DNA of 64,000 bases from Marinobacter guineae (GTDB lineage: Bacteria; Pseudomonadota; Gammaproteobacteria; Pseudomonadales; Oleiphilaceae), in assembly GCF_002744735.1 (NCBI RefSeq), contig NZ_KZ319340.1:124001-188000 (forward strand), read 5' to 3'. Of the stretch, positions 46,144 to 56,081 are shown in pieces. Each line of letters starts with the position of its first letter. The stretch's first letter is position 1. The translations under genes were made by a program, and so were the position numbers. Under the pieces are notes generated by a model that saw only the letters and a program-made list of their open reading frames with translations, made no database searches and was not told the DNA's origin.

Positions 46144-46179
46144 AAACTGCGCTCCGGCCCTACCAGAGCGTCGCAGTTT
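46144..46179 (+). terminator. Possible terminator of yaeQ
   Basis: AAACTGCG at 46144-46151 pairs with CGCAGTTT at 46172-46179, with three more pairs inside. Only a short T-run follows, so it is weak as an intrinsic terminator. Confidence 0.45.
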
Positions 46180-46255
46180 ACGTTAAGGTAAACTTTAGCC
46201 GGTATTGACGAGGGCCACACCAGGTCCCGTCAGCTTGGCTATACTAAAGCCAACG

Positions 46256-46309: not shown

Positions 46310-47512
46310 ATGACAACAACAAAAGCCAAAGTTGTTTACTCCCCGGTCTTTACCGACGGTGCGGAATTCCGGATTCCCACCTTTAAACTACTGAAACAGG
46401 ACGGTTCCCTTTTTAAGGGCGCCAAAGCGCCGGATCTGGATAAAGAGAAGGCCCTGCGCATTTACCGTGCAATGGTCACCACCCGGATTCTCGATGAACG
46501 CATGCTCGCCGCCCAGCGACAGGGGCGTCTCAGCTTCTACATGCAGTGCACCGGTGAGGAAGCGGCCGTAATCGGCAGCGCCGCAGCACTGGACGACGCC
46601 GACATGATTATGGCGCAGTACCGGGAACAGGGCGCCCTGGCCTATCGCGGCTTCTCCATTGATGAATTCATGAACCAGCTGTTCGGCAATGAACTGGACT
46701 ATGGCAAAGGTCGCCAGATGCCCGTTCACTATGGCTCCAGCAAGCTGAACTACATGACCATTTCATCGCCGCTGGCCACGCAGATTCCCCAAGCCACCGG
46801 TTATGCCTACGGCCAGAAATTGGCGGGCGACGGCCACTGCACCATTACCTACTTTGGCGAAGGCGCCGCCTCGGAAGGCGACTTCCACGCCGCCCTCAAT
46901 ATGGCCGCGGTCCATCGCGTTCCGGTGATTTTCCTGTGCCGCAACAACGGCTACGCCATATCCACGCCGGCCACCGAGCAGTTCGCCGCCGATGGCGTTG
47001 CACCGCGGGCCTACGGCTACAAAATGGACGTGATCCGTGTCGATGGTAACGATATTCTCGCCATGCACGAGGCCACCAAAGCGGCACGCCGCCTGGCCGT
47101 GGAGCACAATCGCCCGGTACTGATTGAAGCCATGACCTATCGACTGGCCGCGCACTCGTCGTCCGACGATCCATCCGGCTATCGCAGCAAGGACGAGGAA
47201 GCCGTATGGCGCGAGAAAGACCCGATCCTGCGCATGCGTCTCTGGCTTGAGCGCAAGAAATGGTGGACTGAAGACGACGAGAAGCAGCTGCAGGAGAACA
47301 TGCGTCGCGAAGTGCTCGAAACCATGAAGCGGGCCCAGAAGCGGCCGCCACCGGCGCTGGATACCCTGGTCAGTGATGTTTACGACGAGGTGCCGCCAGC
47401 CCTGGCTGAACAGTTCGATAAACTCAAGGCCCACATCCGCCGCCATCCGGATGCGTACCCGAAGAGTGCTGAACACGCGAAGGGAACGGCCAAAGAGGGA
47501 GGCCTGAAATGA
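46310..47512 (+). CDS. bkdA1: Branched-chain 2-oxoacid dehydrogenase E1 alpha
   Basis: Thiamine-diphosphate E1 alpha chain of the branched-chain 2-oxoacid complex. 400 residues from ATG 46310, preceded by GAGGATT. Seen: [37 protein letters not shown] and the ThDP-magnesium motif [20 protein letters not shown]...NNGYAIST. The FHAALNMA and HSSSDDPS segments fit the branched-chain rather than the pyruvate enzyme. It overlaps the E1 beta start by four bases. Confidence 0.94.
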
Positions 47513-48486
47513 CACAGATGAATATGCTCCAGGCCATTAACAACGCCCTTGATACCGCCATGGCCGCCGACGAACGGGTGCTGTGTTTCGGTGAGGACGT
47601 GGGCATCTTCGGTGGCGTTTTCCGGGCCACCAGCAACCTGCAACAGAAATACGGCAAGTCGCGCTGTTTTAATACGCCACTGGTAGAGCAAGGCATCATC
47701 GGCTTTGCCAACGGCCTCGCGGCCCAGGGTTCCGTGCCGGTCGCCGAGATACAGTTTGCCGATTACATCTTCCCGGCCTTTGACCAGATCGTGAACGAGT
47801 CGGCCAAGTTCCGTTACCGCTCGGGCAACCTGTTCAATGTGGGCGGACTCACCATTCGTGCACCCTACGGTGGCGGCATTGCCGGGGGGCTCTACCACTC
47901 GCAATCGCCGGAGGCCTATTTTGCCCACACACCGGGCCTCAAGATTGTGGTACCGCGCAACCCGCACCAGGCCAAAGGCCTGCTGCTTGCTGCCATCCAC
48001 GACCAGAACCCTACCCTGTTCTTCGAGCCAAAACGGCTCTACCGCGCCTCCGTCGGTGACGTGCCGGATGAAGATTACCGGCTGCCACTGGGCGAAGCCG
48101 AAGTGCTCAAAGAAGGCACGGATGTCACCGTACTGGGCTGGGGTGCACAAATGGAAGTGATTGAACACGCCGTCGAAATGGCGGAAAAAGAGGGCATTTC
48201 CTGTGAAGTCATCGACCTGAGAACCATCCTGCCATGGGATGTGGAAACCGTCGCCAACTCGGTGTTCAAGACCGGGCGCCTGGTGGTTACCCACGAAGCC
48301 CCGCTGACCGGCGGTTTCGCCGGCGAAATTGCGGCGACCATACAGGAGCGTTGCTTCCTGTACCTGGAGTCCCCGATCGCTCGGGTGACCGGGATGGACA
48401 CACCCTTCCCGCTGGTGCTGGAAAAAGAGCATCTGCCCAATCACCTGAAGGTCTATGAGGCCATCAGGTCGAGCGTGGATTTCTAG
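47509..48486 (+). CDS. bkdA2: Branched-chain 2-oxoacid dehydrogenase E1 beta
   Basis: 325-residue E1 beta. Starts [18 protein letters not shown], then [36 protein letters not shown] and [20 protein letters not shown], all usual for this family. Forms the alpha2-beta2 heterotetramer with the preceding gene, to which it is coupled by a four-base overlap. It lies 26 bases upstream of the E2 gene. Confidence 0.95.
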
Positions 48487-48512: not shown

Positions 48513-50117
48513 ATGAGTGATTTTATACTGCCCGATATCGGCGAAGGTATCGTGGAGTGCGAACTGGTCAAATGGCTGGTCAGCGAAGGGGACATCATTG
48601 AAGAGGACCAGCCGGTTGCCGAGGTGATGACCGACAAGGCGCTGGTGGAAATTCCCGCGCCTTACAAGGGCAAGGTAACCCGCCTGTATCACAAGGAAGG
48701 CGACATTGCGAAGGTTCACGCTCCGCTGTTCGAACTGGTGGAAGAGGGCAGCGACAGCGAACAGGACGTAGCACCTCAAACACCAGCGACAGAAGCCGGA
48801 GCTGACCCCAAGGAAGCAGAGCCTGTGCAGGAAACCACTGGCACCACCACAACCAATGACGATGAGACCGAAGACTTTATCCTCCCCGATATCGGCGAAG
48901 GTATCGTCGAATGTGAAGTGGTGGAATGGCGAGTGGCCGAGGGTGACGAAATCGAGGAAGACCAGCCGGTAGTGGATGTCATGACCGACAAGGCCATGGT
49001 CGAGATTACCGCGCCCAAGGCTGGCCGCGTCACGAAGCTTTACCATAAGCAGCAGGAGATGGCCCGGGTGCATTCCCCGCTGTTTGCGTTTATTCCCCGT
49101 GACCGTGACGAGCCCACCGAAGTAAAAGCCGCATCGAAGCCGGCACCGGAACCCTCCCCGGCTACCGCAAAACCTGCTTCAACAGGAAACCGGCAGCGGA
49201 TTCCCGCCAGCCCCGCCGTGCGCCGCCTGGTGCGGGAGCACAACCTGAACCTGTCGGACATCGCCGGTTCCGGTAAGGATGGCCGGGTACTGAAGGCCGA
49301 TGTGCTCGCCCACCTCGACAAGCCCACTGCGCCTGCGCAAAGCCAGGAACGCCCCGGCGAATCACAGCCGGCAAGTGCAGGCGGTGGACGCAGGATGCCT
49401 GATCGCGAGCAGGAAGTCCGGATAGAACCGATCAAGGGTATGAAAGCGGCGATGGCCCGCAGCATGGTCAAGTCGGCAACCACCATCCCGCACTTCATCT
49501 ACAGCGAAGACATCGACGTTACCGACCTGCTGAAACTGCGGGAGCAGCTCAAACCGGAAGCCGAAGCCAGGGGCTCACGGCTGACACTGATGCCATTCGT
49601 CATGAAGGCCATGGCCCTGGCGGTTCAGGAGTTCCCGGTGCTCAACAGCCGTGTTAACGACGACGTTACCGAGATTCACTACCTGCCCAATTGCAATATC
49701 GGCATGGCGGTGGACGGCAAGGCCGGGCTGATGGTTCCCAATGTCAAAGGTGTTGAGAGCCTGACCCTGCTGGGCATTGCCGATGAAGTGGCCCGTCTGA
49801 CCGAGGCGGCCCGCTCGGGCAGGGTAAGCCAGGAGGACCTCAAGGGCGGCACCATCACCATCTCCAACATTGGCGCACTGGGCGGCACCTATGCCTCCCC
49901 CATCATCAATGCCCCGGAAGTGGCGATTGTTGCGCTGGGGCGGACCCAAAAACTGCCTCGCTTCGACGGCAACGGCCAGGTGGTGGAACGGGCCATCATG
50001 ACCGTGAGCTGGGCGGGGGACCATCGCATCATTGATGGTGGCACCATTGCGCGTTTCTGCAATCGCTGGAAAGGATACATGGAATCGCCGCAATCGATGT
50101 TGTTGCATCTGGGCTGA
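48513..50117 (+). CDS. bkdB: Branched-chain 2-oxoacid dehydrogenase E2, two lipoyl domains
   Basis: 534-residue dihydrolipoyl acyltransferase. Two lipoyl domains in tandem: residues ~2-78 (lipoyl Lys42 in VMTDKALVEI) and ~120-197 (Lys160 in VMTDKAMVEI), separated by a Thr/Glu/Ala-rich linker. A peripheral subunit-binding domain at ~229-268 (ASPAVRRLVREHNLNLSDIA) follows. The catalytic domain ends in SWAGDHRIIDGG, with His504. Many bacterial BCKDH E2 chains have one lipoyl domain; two is less usual. No E3 gene follows. Confidence 0.94.
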   Translation: MSDFILPDIGEGIVECELVKWLVSEGDIIEEDQPVAEVMTDKALVEIPAPYKGKVTRLYHKEGDIAKVHAPLFELVEEGSDSEQDVAPQTPATEAGADPKEAEPVQETTGTTTTNDDETEDFILPDIGEGIVECEVVEWRVAEGDEIEEDQPVVDVMTDKAMVEITAPKAGRVTKLYHKQQEMARVHSPLFAFIPRDRDEPTEVKAASKPAPEPSPATAKPASTGNRQRIPASPAVRRLVREHNLNLSDIAGSGKDGRVLKADVLAHLDKPTAPAQSQERPGESQPASAGGGRRMPDREQEVRIEPIKGMKAAMARSMVKSATTIPHFIYSEDIDVTDLLKLREQLKPEAEARGSRLTLMPFVMKAMALAVQEFPVLNSRVNDDVTEIHYLPNCNIGMAVDGKAGLMVPNVKGVESLTLLGIADEVARLTEAARSGRVSQEDLKGGTITISNIGALGGTYASPIINAPEVAIVALGRTQKLPRFDGNGQVVERAIMTVSWAGDHRIIDGGTIARFCNRWKGYMESPQSMLLHLG

Positions 50118-50126
50118 CGGGGCATC

Positions 50127-51971
50127 ATGGCGCAGAACACGCAACTGCAGCAGTTCTACATACCTGAAGAGCAGTCGATCTACCTGCTCAGTCATGATGA
50201 TGCCAAGAAGCTCAAGGACTGGGTGGCGCTTTGCGCCGCTCAGCTCCGCCAACTGGGTTACCTGGACATTGAGCTGATTGGCAAGGGCGCCTACGGGTTC
50301 GTGTTCGCGGGCCGCCTTCCAAGCCCGGACAACACCGGCCCCGAACACGTCTTCAAATTCACCCGCATAAACCTGCCCCAGCACCTGCAGGACCGCCTGG
50401 AAGACGAAGCCTACATCCTCGAGCAGGTCCGGCACCCAAGAGTGCCCCGGCTGATCGCCTATCAGCGGGCCCACAACCAGCCCATTCTGGTGATGGAGCG
50501 GGCCGCAGGTCTTAACCTGGAAGAAGTCTCGTTGCGTGAGGGCCGCCTCAAACCCCGGGTGGTGATGCGCATCGCCGACCAGCTTGCGGACATTCTACGC
50601 AACCTGCGCCGTGAGAACGGTCCCGCCGGACGACCCATCGTGCATGGTGACATCAAGCCATCAAACCTGGTCTTCGACGCCAGCACTGAAAACATCGCCC
50701 TGATCGACTGGGGCTCCTCGGTGTTCGCACAGCTCGATGCCAACCAGCAGTTCCTCACCACCAATGTCATGGAACTGATGTCCGATAACCTGCAACAGAC
50801 CAATGCCCGGCTGGGGGATGTCTACTTCATTGGCGAGGAGCAGCTCAACGGCGGCCTGTCGTCACCGCGTTTTGATGAACAGGGCGCTGCCGGGACGCTC
50901 TATGCACTGGCTTCCGGCCAGTCATGCCGTTTTGGCCACCAGGCGATTCCCGCCACCTCCCTGGGGCTGCCCATGGAGTTCGCCCGCATGCTGGACGGCA
51001 TGCTGGCCCCGGATCCAGAGACTCGCCGGCGGGCCGGTGATTACTATCTGAATGAAATGCCAAGAATGGCGCGCACGGTGATGATTGATCTGCCGGAGCC
51101 CCCGGCAAATCCATTGGTACCAGTGTGGACACGGCCTTCCGAACACGACATCGACACCGTGGTGTACAGCTCCCGCAAATCCTTCCTTCGGCAGGAAGGT
51201 GCTCCGGAAACGCTCAACGATGTTAACGACGTTCAGCTGGACCGCTACTACAAGAACTTCATGCAGGGCATGGGTGAAACGGAAAAGGCCTTCCTGGCCG
51301 CCGTCAGCCGACTGGGACGATACCCCGTCGAAGGCGGCCTCGCCGTGCGCTGGGAGACCGATGGGGTCTACATTGACACCTCACTGAACCTGCACGACCC
51401 CAGCCTCAAGACCGCCTTCATCAGGGCCGTCAACAACATGGTCTACCTGGCCCAGGCCATTTATCGCCAGGGTATCTTCAAAAGCTGCCTGTTCAACGCC
51501 CGCAACACCCTGCACATCGACCGCGCCGAACCGGACCAGCCGTTCGTGATCGAGCCGGGCATGCAACTGCGCTACGAGGTCAGTGCGGCACCCGAAGTGG
51601 AAGACGAATCCCGGGTGCATTCCTATTTCGAGGACGGGCCGGACCCGGAGGAATTCCTGGTGCTGCCGCAAACCATCATCACCGCGCTGGAGTCCCTGAA
51701 CGATATCCATCACACCGGCATGATCATCTTCGAAGCCCTGCCCCGCCACCTCAAGATCCACAGCCACTACCGCTTGCTGGACCCGGACCGAGAGGGAGAG
51801 TTTTCCGGACTGCTCGATGAAATCCTCTCCGCCGTGGACCAGATCACCGGCCTGGGCGTGTCCGGCTTCATGAAAATGCCCTACAAGGACACCCGCTTCT
51901 TCCCCCACATCGAACGCCTGCCCGAACGCTACTACCCACGAAACCCCAGAGCGGAGACCGATTCCGCCTGA
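50127..51971 (+). CDS. Hanks-type Ser/Thr protein kinase downstream of bkd
   Basis: 614 residues. The kinase domain spans ~45-310: glycine loop IGKGAYGFVFAGR (51-63), probable VAIK lysine at 77 (HVFKFTR), catalytic loop IVHGDIKPSNLVF with Asp175 and Asn180, and metal Asp194 in LIDWGSS (DFG replaced by DWG). The remaining ~300 residues have no motif I recognise and no membrane segment. It begins nine bases after the E2 stop, so probably in the bkd operon. Substrate unknown; control of BCKDH is a hypothesis. Confidence 0.88.
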   Translation: MAQNTQLQQFYIPEEQSIYLLSHDDAKKLKDWVALCAAQLRQLGYLDIELIGKGAYGFVFAGRLPSPDNTGPEHVFKFTRINLPQHLQDRLEDEAYILEQVRHPRVPRLIAYQRAHNQPILVMERAAGLNLEEVSLREGRLKPRVVMRIADQLADILRNLRRENGPAGRPIVHGDIKPSNLVFDASTENIALIDWGSSVFAQLDANQQFLTTNVMELMSDNLQQTNARLGDVYFIGEEQLNGGLSSPRFDEQGAAGTLYALASGQSCRFGHQAIPATSLGLPMEFARMLDGMLAPDPETRRRAGDYYLNEMPRMARTVMIDLPEPPANPLVPVWTRPSEHDIDTVVYSSRKSFLRQEGAPETLNDVNDVQLDRYYKNFMQGMGETEKAFLAAVSRLGRYPVEGGLAVRWETDGVYIDTSLNLHDPSLKTAFIRAVNNMVYLAQAIYRQGIFKSCLFNARNTLHIDRAEPDQPFVIEPGMQLRYEVSAAPEVEDESRVHSYFEDGPDPEEFLVLPQTIITALESLNDIHHTGMIIFEALPRHLKIHSHYRLLDPDREGEFSGLLDEILSAVDQITGLGVSGFMKMPYKDTRFFPHIERLPERYYPRNPRAETDSA

Positions 51972-52071: not shown

Positions 52072-52148
<77 letters not shown>

Positions 52149-52158
52149 TATTTATCAG

Positions 52159-52189
52159 GGACTTGCGTGAAAACGCAGGTCCTTTTTTT
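52159..52189 (+). terminator. Intrinsic terminator after tRNA-Arg
   Basis: GGACTTGCGT and ACGCAGGTCC form a 10-bp stem (one G-T pair) around a GAAA tetraloop, followed by T7. Confidence 0.92.
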
Positions 52190-52518
52190 GGCCTGTGCCC
52201 AAATGGTGCCCTGACAGTGCCTATCATTTTTCAGAGATTAACCTCCAATTTTTTTATCGACCTTTGCCCTCCTTTGCCGTTTGCGCGATTTGGGCACAGT
52301 TTCCCTAGCCTTGCCTAACCCCACCAACTAACGTAATGCAACCCTATGTCGAGTGGTTAGCAAGCCGGATTTTTCCAACTCCGGGTGGACCTAAAACGGG
52401 GCCAGGTTCACACCCTCACCGCTCCGCAGGATGCTCAGCAGGCGGAAGTAGCAATGGCGCGGAAGGAGTCTAGCTGCCAGACTGCGCTTTGGTCGCAAAG
52501 CGAACATTCAGGTTTGGC
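52190..52518. other. Gene-free stretch between tRNA-Arg and the cassette array
   Basis: 329 bases with no supported gene. Two TTTGGGCAC-like segments (about 52196-52206 and 52288-52298, opposite orientation) and CTAACG/GGTTAGC motifs near 52330-52360 look like remnants of recombination sites or of a lost element. I cannot assign them. Confidence 0.4.
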
Positions 52519-52577
52519 AATAACGCCAGCGGCAGGGGCGCGACGAAAGGAGCGTCCCTTGACCGCACTTGTTAGGG
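52519..52577 (-). repeat. attC-like recombination site 1
   Basis: Read on the minus strand it opens with CCCTAAC and closes with GCGTTATT, 59 bases in all. The arms pair imperfectly (GCGG..AAGGG..CGC with GCG-CCCCTGCCGC), leaving bulged bases as in integron attC sites. The TAA stop of the preceding AlbA_2 gene lies inside the first core box, typical of gene cassettes. The closing core is the least conserved of the three. Confidence 0.6.
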
Positions 52578-53951
52578 ATCTTGTGTGTAAGAGTTAATCT
52601 TATCGAATCCCCACGCTTCTGTATCTTTGGTGAACTCTTCTGGACTGGAAACTATTCCAACCGAATGGAAGATGTTATAAAAAATAGGTGCAGAATATAA
52701 GTAAGGAATCGGTTGGTACTTTTCTTGTGAGGTAAAATCGACATCCCTTACGGAAAAATTATGTATAAACATGTTTTCTTCTTTCGGCTCACTTGGAACT
52801 GAAATCACATTATCGGCTGTGATGGGAATAGAGTTTTCTCGGATTCTCTCCAAAAACACCTCGGAATCCACATAAGGAGAGGTGAAAAATACGTTTCTCA
52901 ATGTAAAGCACGAATATGTATTTCTCTTATCACCTTTAAAATTCAAAATCTGAAGATAAAAGTTTGCAAGGGAAGCCAAAGCCTGAGCCAGCAAAGAGTA
53001 ATCTACAATTTTTATATTTGAGTAACCTTGAAGTCGAGCTAGTTCGCAAAAGTCATCAACGTACTTATGCTTATCACGTACTTCCGAAAAGGAATCAAAA
53101 TCATACGAATTCAAAGGGATATCCAGGCGGGCAGTACCATCATGCCACCACCTGAAGCTCAATGTAGCCAAGCTGGGGTCATTGCCGTCGATTTGTCTTG
53201 CTAAATACCCGTCTGCCGTGGTTTGAAGGGCCTGCATAGGACACCAAACACCAAGTGCACTAACGTCTTTATTCTTGATAATTCTTGAGAAATCATCAAA
53301 GGAAAACTTTCTCTCCGGCCCTACTTGATGTTGCGCAGGTCTAAGGTAGATGTGAGCCCAAGCCATATCTGATTGAGCATCTGGAAGATCGGGAATGGTT
53401 CCTAAGAAATGAGTTACCTTTTCTTGGTGGTTTGTTCCCCGTCTCCAGAGTTCGTCAAGAATAAATCGGTCAGTTTCTTCTTTCGGTTTGGATTGATCAG
53501 CCAACCGACGATAAATCCTTCCCGAAGAATGGATATGTGGAGTGTTTAGGCTCATGGGTATCCCAACGATAAGGATACAGTAACCGTTAGCCAACCCTAT
53601 TTCCTCAATGGGTCCGCTGATTATACGCTCTTCATACAAAACCTCTGGATTCACATGTGCGGCGGCAGCTTCCCTGATGTCTCTCGATACCTTTTCTAAC
53701 TGATCATTCGGTATCCCAGGAAATCTTGAAGCGGTTCGTGTTCCGTCGGAACCTTCCTCTACCCCGATGAATAACCAGCCGCCATACTGGTTTGCAAAGC
53801 CAGACAAATGCTTAGCAAAGTCAGGAATTTTGAGGCCCTGCACTTTGTAATCAATGTACCAACCTTCTGAAACGGATTTAAGACGTAACAAATCGTCGGC
53901 ACCGATATTTTCCAAGTTGTTCTTAAAAGGGTAGTACGAATAATCTAGCAA
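52572..53951 (-). CDS. AlbA_2/Schlafen-domain protein, cassette gene
   Basis: 459 residues, AT-rich. The N-terminal AlbA_2 (Schlafen-like) domain is at ~18-140: EGWYIDYKVQGL, FAKHLSGFANQYGGWLFIGVEE, and HSSGRIYRRLADQSKP. The rest (~160-459) is not recognised. AlbA_2 proteins are predicted nucleic-acid-binding and several act in defence. It starts at TTG 53951, whose ribosome site GGGAG is part of the attC core box before it. Its stop codon is inside attC-like site 1. Confidence 0.75.
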   Translation of the reverse strand: MLDYSYYPFKNNLENIGADDLLRLKSVSEGWYIDYKVQGLKIPDFAKHLSGFANQYGGWLFIGVEEGSDGTRTASRFPGIPNDQLEKVSRDIREAAAAHVNPEVLYEERIISGPIEEIGLANGYCILIVGIPMSLNTPHIHSSGRIYRRLADQSKPKEETDRFILDELWRRGTNHQEKVTHFLGTIPDLPDAQSDMAWAHIYLRPAQHQVGPERKFSFDDFSRIIKNKDVSALGVWCPMQALQTTADGYLARQIDGNDPSLATLSFRWWHDGTARLDIPLNSYDFDSFSEVRDKHKYVDDFCELARLQGYSNIKIVDYSLLAQALASLANFYLQILNFKGDKRNTYSCFTLRNVFFTSPYVDSEVFLERIRENSIPITADNVISVPSEPKEENMFIHNFSVRDVDFTSQEKYQPIPYLYSAPIFYNIFHSVGIVSSPEEFTKDTEAWGFDKINSYTQDP

Positions 53952-53959
53952 AGCTCTAC

Positions 53960-54076
53960 TCCCTAACGAATGATTGTTCAGCGGCAGCCTTGGCAGAGCG
54001 TAGCGGTTACAAGGCTGTCCGGTGGAGGGCTGCCAGGCCCGGAACGAACTGGAACAATTTATTTGAACGTTGATAC
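53960..54076 (-). repeat. attC-like recombination site 2
   Basis: About 117 bases between the SYTHGG gene and the AlbA_2 gene. On the minus strand it ends in GTTAGGGAG just before the TTG start, and begins GTATCAAC near 54076. ATTGTTC and GAACAAT pair across the site, and GGCAGCC pairs with GGCTGCC, with an unpaired centre. The length is within the range known for long attC sites. Less regular than site 3. Confidence 0.6.
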
Positions 54077-54079
54077 CCC

Positions 54080-54670
54080 TTAAGGCTTGGCAGGCGAAAG
54101 TCTCTTGATCGCCTCGTCGGCCAAATCGATGCGCCCGGCCTCAATTGCAATTTGCTGGAAAGCCATAAGTGCAAAAGTACCAGAGAGACGTATAACTTCC
54201 TCTATTTCCTCAGCTTCATAATTGGGTTCAACGCTGTTTCCCGAAAATCTCCGGCCTGACTGAAGCGCTCCACCATGGGTGTAGCTGTTCATTGCGCTCC
54301 AAGAGTTTGCCTTGAGCCCTGAGAGAACCCCGTCGCCAAACCCTGGAACAGCCTCGACAGCCGTTACTAGATGACCGAAATTCAAATTCAGTTTGTCGGA
54401 TTGATACTTCAGAATTTCCGAATCCGTAGCACAGTGCCTCAGCCATACGCCTCTGACAAAAGCTTCGAATACTGAACGAACCAACGCAAAAGCTGAGCCG
54501 TAGATTTTGCCTCGGGCCAGAACAGCAATACCAAGATGATGCTCTATGACTAGGTCATGACATGATATGGACAACGATGCTCGGGTTCCTCCGGGCATCT
54601 CTAGCCCATCTAAACGCTCGGCGATCCATTCATGCAATTCAAAAGACTTGGGCACTATTTTTTGAGTCAT
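54080..54670 (-). CDS. Cassette protein with MNSYTHGG motif, unknown function
   Basis: 196 residues. Helical, no signal or membrane segment. Features are FALVRSVFEAFVRGVWLRH (~62-79), an invariant-looking MNSYTHGG at 127-134 and a C-terminal helix FALMAFQQIAIEAGRID. The layout (arginine helix, then a Tyr-Thr-His-Gly loop) recalls small families near DUF5677/DUF6988, but I cannot name it. The ATG lies 3 bases after an attC-like core GTTAGAGC, as in mobile gene cassettes. GC is nearer the host than its two neighbours. Confidence 0.72.
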   Translation of the reverse strand: MTQKIVPKSFELHEWIAERLDGLEMPGGTRASLSISCHDLVIEHHLGIAVLARGKIYGSAFALVRSVFEAFVRGVWLRHCATDSEILKYQSDKLNLNFGHLVTAVEAVPGFGDGVLSGLKANSWSAMNSYTHGGALQSGRRFSGNSVEPNYEAEEIEEVIRLSGTFALMAFQQIAIEAGRIDLADEAIKRLSPAKP

Positions 54671-54673
54671 ATC

Positions 54674-54744
54674 GCTCTAACGCCACGCTCTGGGGCAAAC
54701 CGGAGCGAAGCGTAGGTTTGTCCCTAGCAGCGTTTTGTTAGGGC
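54674..54744 (-). repeat. attC-like recombination site 3 (best match)
   Basis: 71 bases. On the minus strand it opens GCCCTAAC and closes GTTAGAGC. The outer boxes pair (CTAACGC with GCGttttGTTAG), and the inner GGGGCAAACC pairs with GGTTTGTCCC with one mismatch. A 13-base unpaired centre GGAGCGAAGCGTA separates them. It follows directly on the stop of the HEPN gene (the stop abuts it) and precedes the next ATG by 3 bases. Confidence 0.75.
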
Positions 54745-56081
54745 TAGGAAAAGACAAGATCTTCATTTTCTTCAATCCCGATTTCAAGAGAATAGTTGTC
54801 TCTGAGCTTTCTATTCGATTCCACAAAAGAATGGAGTCGCAAAGATGTATTGTTAGAGTTCAATTGAAATTCCTGAGTTGCACTAATCGACGGAATCTGA
54901 TCAGTATCACCAAAAACCATCGAACTCATGTCTATCGTTAGCTTACCGTTTAGACTACTTACTCGGGAAATATCAAAATGGTGTTCATTGAATAACCCTT
55001 CTGATTCACACTCAATTTCTAATAATAGACTTACTTCAGGCATCTTTATGAAAGGAACATAATCCTCGTACTCAGGAATATTGAAAAAGCCTTCTGCGCT
55101 TAATACTGACACCTTCGCGGTGATCCTTATTTTTGTTCGACATTTGGTATATCCATGCTGATCATGTGCATCTTCTAATATTTCAGGCTGATCAATATTT
55201 GTGGTTGCCTCATATATCGCCAAAACTGGCTCTTTTTCAAAGGGAAACCTATTTTCGCTACTATTTCTATGTGGCGTAAAGTTCTCATTCAACCATCCTT
55301 GTAGGGTAATCTCCGGCATGTAGGGTGGCGCTCCACAGTGTCCGTGATCCCGCACTTTTATGCTTAGTGGAAGTTGCTTTACCGTGCTTGACTTAAATCT
55401 TTGAATAGCTTCATTCAGTAAAGCATCATAACGATGCTCTAAATCACTAAGAACTTCTGTGGCTTTTTCGTATATGCCGTTCAAGTCCACATCAATATTT
55501 CTGGAATGACCGAACAACCCTTCCATCCCGGGGAGCGGACTATGTGGAACAACATTGGCTCGCAACTGGCGCGGAAGATTATTTGCTGATGCATAGCAGG
55601 CTTTTAACACTGAAACCGACCGAGGTATTAAGTTACCCATTACTCTGACTAGCGAATCAGGATTCGCCTTTATTGCAAAGTGTTGGAGTTGATTCCTAAC
55701 ACTATTCAGGACATCAAATGACGAGGTCAATTGATTTAGATCCTTTTTCTTTAACCCATTTATTATTTTGAGAGAAACAAGCCTTTGAATTGTTTCCGTT
55801 GGGCTTATTGTTTTAGCCTCATCAAAAAGATAGCTATTCTTACCATCAAAAAAACCTTGATAGTAGGAAAGAATTTCCTTCATTGTGGTCTTATCGTCGA
55901 GAATAAATATAGGGTTTTTCTGAAAAAGTAGATCTTTGAAAAGGGTTTCCAGGCCGTGATGAACCTTAATGATAACCTCTTTCATTAAGTAAGGATCTTC
56001 ACCAGTTTCTAGAAAATCATTAAGATTTTTTAATCCAATTGCTAAAGAGTGTATTCCATTCTTATAAGGAGTTATTTCCAT
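54744..56081 (-). CDS. HEPN-like N-terminal domain protein, cassette gene
   Basis: 445 residues, markedly AT-rich. The first ~140 residues are helical, with VIIKVHHGLETLFKDLLF at 37-54 and Rx4H as RNQLQH at 129-134, the HEPN ribonuclease signature. The remaining 300 residues include a beta-rich C-terminal part (~240-445) with KVRDHGHCGAPPYMPEITL; no family recognised. HEPN proteins are often toxins or phage-defence RNases, so a defence role is inferred. It is the first gene of the array and is bounded by a core site at 56113. Confidence 0.7.
   Translation of the reverse strand: MEITPYKNGIHSLAIGLKNLNDFLETGEDPYLMKEVIIKVHHGLETLFKDLLFQKNPIFILDDKTTMKEILSYYQGFFDGKNSYLFDEAKTISPTETIQRLVSLKIINGLKKKDLNQLTSSFDVLNSVRNQLQHFAIKANPDSLVRVMGNLIPRSVSVLKACYASANNLPRQLRANVVPHSPLPGMEGLFGHSRNIDVDLNGIYEKATEVLSDLEHRYDALLNEAIQRFKSSTVKQLPLSIKVRDHGHCGAPPYMPEITLQGWLNENFTPHRNSSENRFPFEKEPVLAIYEATTNIDQPEILEDAHDQHGYTKCRTKIRITAKVSVLSAEGFFNIPEYEDYVPFIKMPEVSLLLEIECESEGLFNEHHFDISRVSSLNGKLTIDMSSMVFGDTDQIPSISATQEFQLNSNNTSLRLHSFVESNRKLRDNYSLEIGIEENEDLVFS

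Follow-up and report, generated by a model that had tools for sequence, protein, structure and literature searches.

Directly behind the genes for a branched-chain 2-oxoacid dehydrogenase (BCKDH) of mitochondrial type, Marinobacter guineae carries a gene for a predicted Hanks-type protein kinase. The active-site residues of the kinase are intact, its linkage to the dehydrogenase genes is conserved, and its presence depends almost strictly on one subfamily of bkd genes. We consider a functional coupling of the kinase to the mitochondrial-type BCKDH, beyond operon hitch-hiking, to be highly probable and well supported. By analogy with the mitochondrial system, we lean towards the reading that the protein is a dedicated BCKDH kinase, not homologous to BCKDK, with E1-alpha as its putative target and inhibition as the putative outcome. 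The findings suggest that one enzyme may have gained an off-switch twice, through kinases of different families. The fuller proposal, that a bacterial lineage independently evolved a Hanks-type BCKDH kinase with a new tandem docking or sensing domain, acting on the same enzyme as the GHKL kinase and perhaps on the same serine, is tentative and falls a little short of an even chance.

In mitochondria, the covalent control of branched-chain keto acid oxidation is textbook knowledge and is linked to metabolic disease. If the proposal holds, bacteria regulate BCKDH post-translationally, and control of this enzyme type by a dedicated kinase from a second family in many gammaproteobacteria would amount to a clear example of convergence in regulation. 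The carriers comprise many bacteria of salty waters, in which the kinase gene often lies right behind those of the branched-chain enzyme.

The bkd operon and its E1 type

The window is the whole stretch of DNA that was analysed, 64,000 nucleotides of a Marinobacter guineae contig, and contains the following features.

46177-46192, both strands: near-palindromic, LiuR-like box TTTACGTTAAGGTAAA, 133 bases upstream of the E1-alpha start
46310-47512, plus strand: BCKDH E1-alpha, mitochondrial type, with Ser283 and Ser293 (match to 1dtw_A; human alignment)
47509-48486, plus strand: BCKDH E1-beta (1dtw_B at 4.4e-137 versus 1qs0_B at 4.9e-94)
48513-50117, plus strand: BCKDH E2 with two lipoyl domains (NCBIfam; lipoyl-type motif VMTDKA found twice in the translation)
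50127-51971, plus strand: kinase gene, 614 amino acids (open reading frame with ATG start, Pfam match, alignment)
50247-51077, plus strand: Hanks-type kinase domain, about residues 41-317, with HGD and DWG in place of HRD and DFG (Pfam, alignment, model)
51153-51521, plus strand: apparent C-terminal repeat 1, about residues 343-465, in the order strand, helix, two strands, helix, strand (model elements, profile match)
51621-51890, plus strand: apparent C-terminal repeat 2, about residues 499-588, identical element order (model elements, profile match)

The E1-alpha start was taken at MTTTKAK, and an in-frame TTG also occurs earlier, at 46205. NCBIfam leaves the type of the E1 undecided, its best models being pyruvate dehydrogenase ones that score below their cut-offs. 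Among solved structures, E1-alpha matched 1dtw_A at 1.2e-118 (400 bits) and 1qs0_A at 1e-63 (219 bits), which we take to be the human and the Pseudomonas putida BCKDH, respectively; the other matched structures, presumably a Thermus 2-oxoacid dehydrogenase and a Bacillus-type pyruvate dehydrogenase, followed at 2.2e-70 and 4.5e-68. The protein is 50% identical to human E1-alpha over 363 aligned positions, and six other sampled members of its subfamily are 48-51% identical, compared with 42% for L171, which scored highest among the phylum sample's E1-alpha sequences from outside the subfamily. The E1 thus resembles mitochondrial BCKDH more closely than it does P. putida BCKDH or pyruvate dehydrogenase, and the structure matches together with the human identity indicate that the operon encodes a mitochondrial-type BCKDH and not a pyruvate dehydrogenase. 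That E1-alpha and E1-beta (46310-48486) lie so much nearer to the human mitochondrial enzyme than to that of P. putida may also bear on the origin of mitochondrial BCKDH.

The human phosphorylation loop YRIGHHSTSDDSSAYRS aligns without gaps to a 17-residue stretch of the window's E1-alpha, and Ser283 and Ser293 therefore correspond to the two mammalian regulatory serines, which we take to be sites 292 and 302 in mature numbering. The first mammalian regulatory site is named Ser293 in PMC11358235.

Between E1-alpha and the kinase, a simple scan detected no promoter of sigma-70-like type, nor any terminator-like site on the plus strand from the E2 start to the kinase end, so that co-transcription of the kinase with bkd is predicted to be likely. 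The box upstream of E1-alpha, which resembles the LiuR motif, is the window's sole match to the pattern at up to 2 mismatches, where 0.02 were expected. A LiuR-like box within 3 mismatches occurs in 111 of 144 bkd upstream regions, kinase-negative operons included, when scored with a consensus drawn partly from these same regions. LiuR control of bkd operons has been predicted in Shewanella (PMC3223726).

Linkage and co-occurrence of kinase and E1-alpha

Linkage of the kinase to bkd across genomes, on which the original prediction depended, proved to be conserved. Full-length orthologues are present in 21 genomes among 38 relatives, and in all 21 the E2 gene precedes the kinase by no more than about 170 bases. 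A contig scan matched at least 591 stretches, of which 492 were confirmed and the best 80 kept as named loci, which biases the set to close relatives (Marinobacter and Halomonadaceae genera, plus one Oleiphilaceae MAG and one Aquisalimonas). E2 is found upstream of the kinase in 79 of these best 80 loci, within 320 bases in 76, and the sole locus without it (L068) is cut by a contig end. The two genes are separated by 0.9-7.7 kb in L084, L085 and L101, and in two distant genomes (L036 and L037, kinase identity 58-59%) the kinase is still near E2, with other DNA in between. Among the 88 genomes of family f155 that hold both genes, E1-alpha and the kinase lie within 12 kb of each other in 64, 14 kb to 3.1 Mb apart on one contig in 15, and on different contigs in 9. 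Directly behind the kinase, similar small VOC-like proteins (by eye) are encoded both in L036 (10031-10426, reverse complement), where the pair is linked, and in L199 (7657-8028), where it is distant, as if the kinase and the VOC-like gene had moved together; both loci are from f155.

The kinase, counted at E up to 1e-40, was present in 29 of 398 genomes of a phylum sample, and an E1-alpha with 59% identity or more occurs in exactly those 29; a further 68 genomes have an E1-alpha at E up to 1e-50, and in these the identity does not exceed 44% and the kinase is absent. In a class sample of 369 genomes, E1-alpha (E up to 1e-100) occurs in five and the full kinase in exactly those five, while one further genome (G399) has a 90-residue kinase fragment at a contig end and no close E1-alpha. 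Six congeners among the relatives lack both. All 72 genomes of family f208 have E1-alpha and 65 of them have the kinase, and the 113 genomes of f155 divide into 88 with both, 2 with the kinase only, 12 with E1-alpha only and 11 with neither (Fisher p 1.4e-7, with genomes treated as independent of phylogeny). In the union of 948 genomes, tallied by hand, 183 hold both genes, 2 the kinase only, 19 E1-alpha only, one a kinase fragment, and the rest neither. By the same tally, the close E1-alpha subfamily is present in 183 of 185 kinase carriers, and the two carriers without it (G912 and G927) are 84% and 85% complete.

The kinase is absent from 19 of 202 genomes with a close E1-alpha and is therefore dispensable. 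Given that genomes with E1-alpha only exist and those with the kinase only are nearly lacking, the dependence is one-way, as expected of an accessory regulator. Seven of the 19 belong to f208 and 12 to f155; four of the absences may be assembly gaps, as G786, G886 and G941 are 62%, 85% and 80% complete and the contig of G915 stops 136 bases past E2. Several of the bkd-positive, kinase-negative genomes are small (2.3-2.9 Mb). In genera g479 and g480 (f208) and g489, g502 and g503 (f155), all 15 sampled members keep bkd E1-alpha and the kinase was not found; this group, which includes the 62% complete G786, constitutes a natural control.

Candidate target of the kinase

The mechanism that we infer gives the kinase a target, a site, a regulatory sign and a role for its C-terminal part. 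The kinase would be dedicated to the mitochondrial-type branched-chain 2-oxoacid dehydrogenase encoded just upstream, and its kinase domain would phosphorylate E1-alpha, most likely in the Ser283/Ser293 loop, which corresponds to the site used by mammalian BCKDK. A probable role of the C-terminal tandem domain is docking to the complex or sensing of a ligand, for example a branched-chain keto acid, and phosphorylation of E1-alpha would lower BCKDH activity when branched-chain amino acids should be spared.

A residue used solely for regulation might decay where the kinase is absent, and Ser/Thr/Tyr columns were accordingly compared between kinase-positive loci (126 E1-alpha, 127 E1-beta and 130 E2 sequences) and 17 kinase-negative ones, leaving out L215 and L218 (contig end of G915, 136 bases after E2, and the 80% complete G941). 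No Ser or Thr column of E1-alpha, E1-beta or E2 fell below half in the kinase-negative rows. The largest drop was at Ser143 of E1-alpha, from Ser/Thr in 116 of 126 rows (92%) with the kinase to 10 of 17 (59%) without it; the other 7 of the 17 have Cys in the alignment, as does the human protein. Tyr52 and Tyr148 drop to 7/17 (41%) and 8/17 (47%), respectively, mostly to Phe. The kinase-negative rows come from few lineages, so that such drops can be inherited, and none of the three residues was convincing as a kinase-dependent site. Column 283 has Ser in 126/126 kinase-positive and 17/17 kinase-negative rows, and column 293 has Ser or Thr in 121/126 and 16/17. As Ser283 is invariant in both sets of rows, its conservation speaks neither for nor against it as a site, and the residue may be structural. 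Since the regulatory serines are kept without the kinase and no Ser or Thr column falls below half, E1-alpha is a target that we infer. Of the regulatory kinase for BCKDH, independently evolved, that had been proposed at the outset, the association with bkd stands, as linkage and co-occurrence uphold it also for genes that are not neighbours; the column comparison yielded no clear site for it.

Both linkage and co-occurrence point to the pathway as much as to E1, and loss of bkd may accompany loss of the whole pathway. The kinase could serve branched-chain amino acid catabolism by acting on a substrate other than E1, such as E2, a downstream enzyme or a regulator (LiuR, TyrR), in keeping with the lack of a clear kinase-dependent site in E1 or E2. 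We regard this reading as unlikely; the linked kinase gene sits behind E2 itself, and no branched-chain catabolism genes were recognised by eye in five distant kinase neighbourhoods.

The dedicated BCKDH kinase that we favour is also consistent with the pairs whose genes lie far apart. Among the 65 carriers in f208, counted by hand, the two genes share a contig in 24, at distances that all exceed 1 Mb, and lie on separate contigs in 41; the pairing there is not explained by adjacency, and since every one of the 72 genomes keeps E1-alpha, joint loss is not seen in f208. Joint absence was seen among siblings in two genera of f155, compared without a tree: in g350 the genes are 1.1 Mb apart in the one carrier and both are missing from two siblings, and in g496 they are 303 and 125 kb apart in two carriers and both are missing from one sibling. 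Counting against a tight coupling, the LiuR-like box is absent from 7/7 distant kinase upstream regions (5-7 mismatches, as in shuffles). That the kinase is an operon passenger of unrelated function, as the 19 of 202 genomes without it and the 0.9 to 7.7 kb between E2 and kinase in three named loci might suggest, is very improbable, because the pairing holds where the genes are far apart and sibling species in two genera lack both distant genes.

The kinase, its C-terminal part and known systems

The kinase ATG (50127) follows the E2 stop (50117) by nine bases, and the open reading frame bears out the kinase with intact Asp175, Asn180 and Asp194 that had been described from the translation. 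An alignment of 12 sequences, the most divergent of which is 57% identical to the window's kinase, has K77, E94, D175, N180 and D194 in every row, as does a second set of 25. The Pfam Pkinase profile matches residues 47-209 at 3.1e-17. In structural alignment, the model of the kinase domain superposes on PknB (2fum_B) over 236 residues at Z 18.7 and rmsd 3.1, and on AMPK and NEK7 at Z about 18. With the profile, the fold and the conserved catalytic K, E, D, N and D all present, the gene product is assigned as a Hanks-type protein kinase, predicted from sequence and model to phosphorylate proteins on Ser/Thr. All five Pfam families matched at E up to 1 have a protein-kinase-like fold and none is GHKL; the protein is thus not a member of the BCKDK/PDK family, in agreement with the original prediction.

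One of these families is APH (1.7e-7; 31.7 bits, above the cut-off of 23.2), which, together with HGD in place of HRD, would fit a small-molecule kinase of the APH kind acting on a pathway metabolite. Such an activity has little probability in our view, as the Pkinase match is far better and the domain aligns to PknB, AMPK and NEK7; an APH-type assignment by best profile was rejected on the same comparison (1.7e-7 versus 3.1e-17). A reading as a defence kinase was likewise rejected, the 25 listed of 31 PADLOC matches all falling within residues 36-307, that is, in the kinase domain. No match to the kinase was found in a plasmid collection at E up to 1e-10, which would have pointed to a mobile element. 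Non-RD kinases usually need no activation-loop phosphorylation, and given the HGD/DWG, non-RD type of this protein, it may be controlled through its C-terminal part or through binding to the complex.

The 300-residue C-terminal part had been left unassigned in the original prediction and still has no family or significant structural match, the gain from structure prediction being an apparent internal duplication. Searched alone, the last 290 residues had no family match in Pfam (E up to 1) or in NCBIfam (E up to 0.1). Two structure predictions, of the whole protein and of the C-terminus alone, both contain one order of elements in two copies. A local profile comparison of the halves gave a match of 64 columns (E 3.9e-5, probability 70.6%), against a probability of only 10.3% in global alignment, and with this modest support from sequence and model the C-terminal ~285 residues look like an internal duplication. 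Foldseek found nothing better than E 0.27 for the C-terminal model, and VIA-align over 999 chains gave a best Z of 3.9 at rmsd 9.6. A tandem ferredoxin-like (ACT-like) fold was considered from the element order in the model; because model confidence is moderate (mean pLDDT 71.9 for the C-terminus alone and 66.7 for the full-length kinase), we make no claim of a new fold. If the proposed function is correct, this domain, for which no solved relative was found, is a candidate docking or sensing module.

The nearest known system is the mitochondrial BCKDK/BDK and PPM1K pair acting on BCKDHA. The enzyme type is the same as that of the proposed target (50% identity, both serines), and inhibition by phosphorylation is the logic also proposed here. 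BCKDK is a GHKL-type kinase with a BCKDK N-terminal domain, whereas the window's kinase is of Hanks type with an unrelated C-terminal part. In contrast to BCKDK/PPM1K, no partner phosphatase was seen by eye beside the operon, which counts against a dedicated kinase. Regulation of mammalian BCKDH by phosphorylation is described in PMC11358235 and PMC11021975.

With PknB and StkP the kinase shares the kinase fold (PknB Z 18.7) and complete catalytic residues, but it differs from them in its HGD and DWG motifs, in having no PASTA match in the Pfam search, in its tandem C-terminus and in being tied to one metabolic operon. Pseudomonas-type bkd operons have the order bkdA1-bkdA2-bkdB-lpdV. The order E1-alpha, E1-beta, E2 is the same here, but the E2 gene is directly followed by the kinase gene instead of an E3 gene, and the E1 is much nearer to mitochondrial BCKDH than to 1qs0. 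A literature search covering few subscription papers found no report of a BCKDH-linked Hanks-type kinase, and the accessible parts of PMC3223726, PMC3219624, PMC5343134, PMC1262709, PMC11021975 and PMC11358235 describe no such kinase. A BCKDH-linked kinase from a family other than that of BCKDK is what is new here.

The genome that the window comes from has a single further match to the kinase, at L002 166-2937, in a cluster that by eye holds an FHA protein and a PP2C-like phosphatase, a possible, unlinked phosphatase source. Within the window, the kinase gene is followed by a tRNA-Arg(CCG) at 52072-52148 and then by genes on the opposite strand. These minus-strand genes encode a protein with a Schlafen/AlbA_2 domain, a DUF6988 protein and one protein without a Pfam match, and the region 52072-56081 might be a small genomic island at the tRNA.
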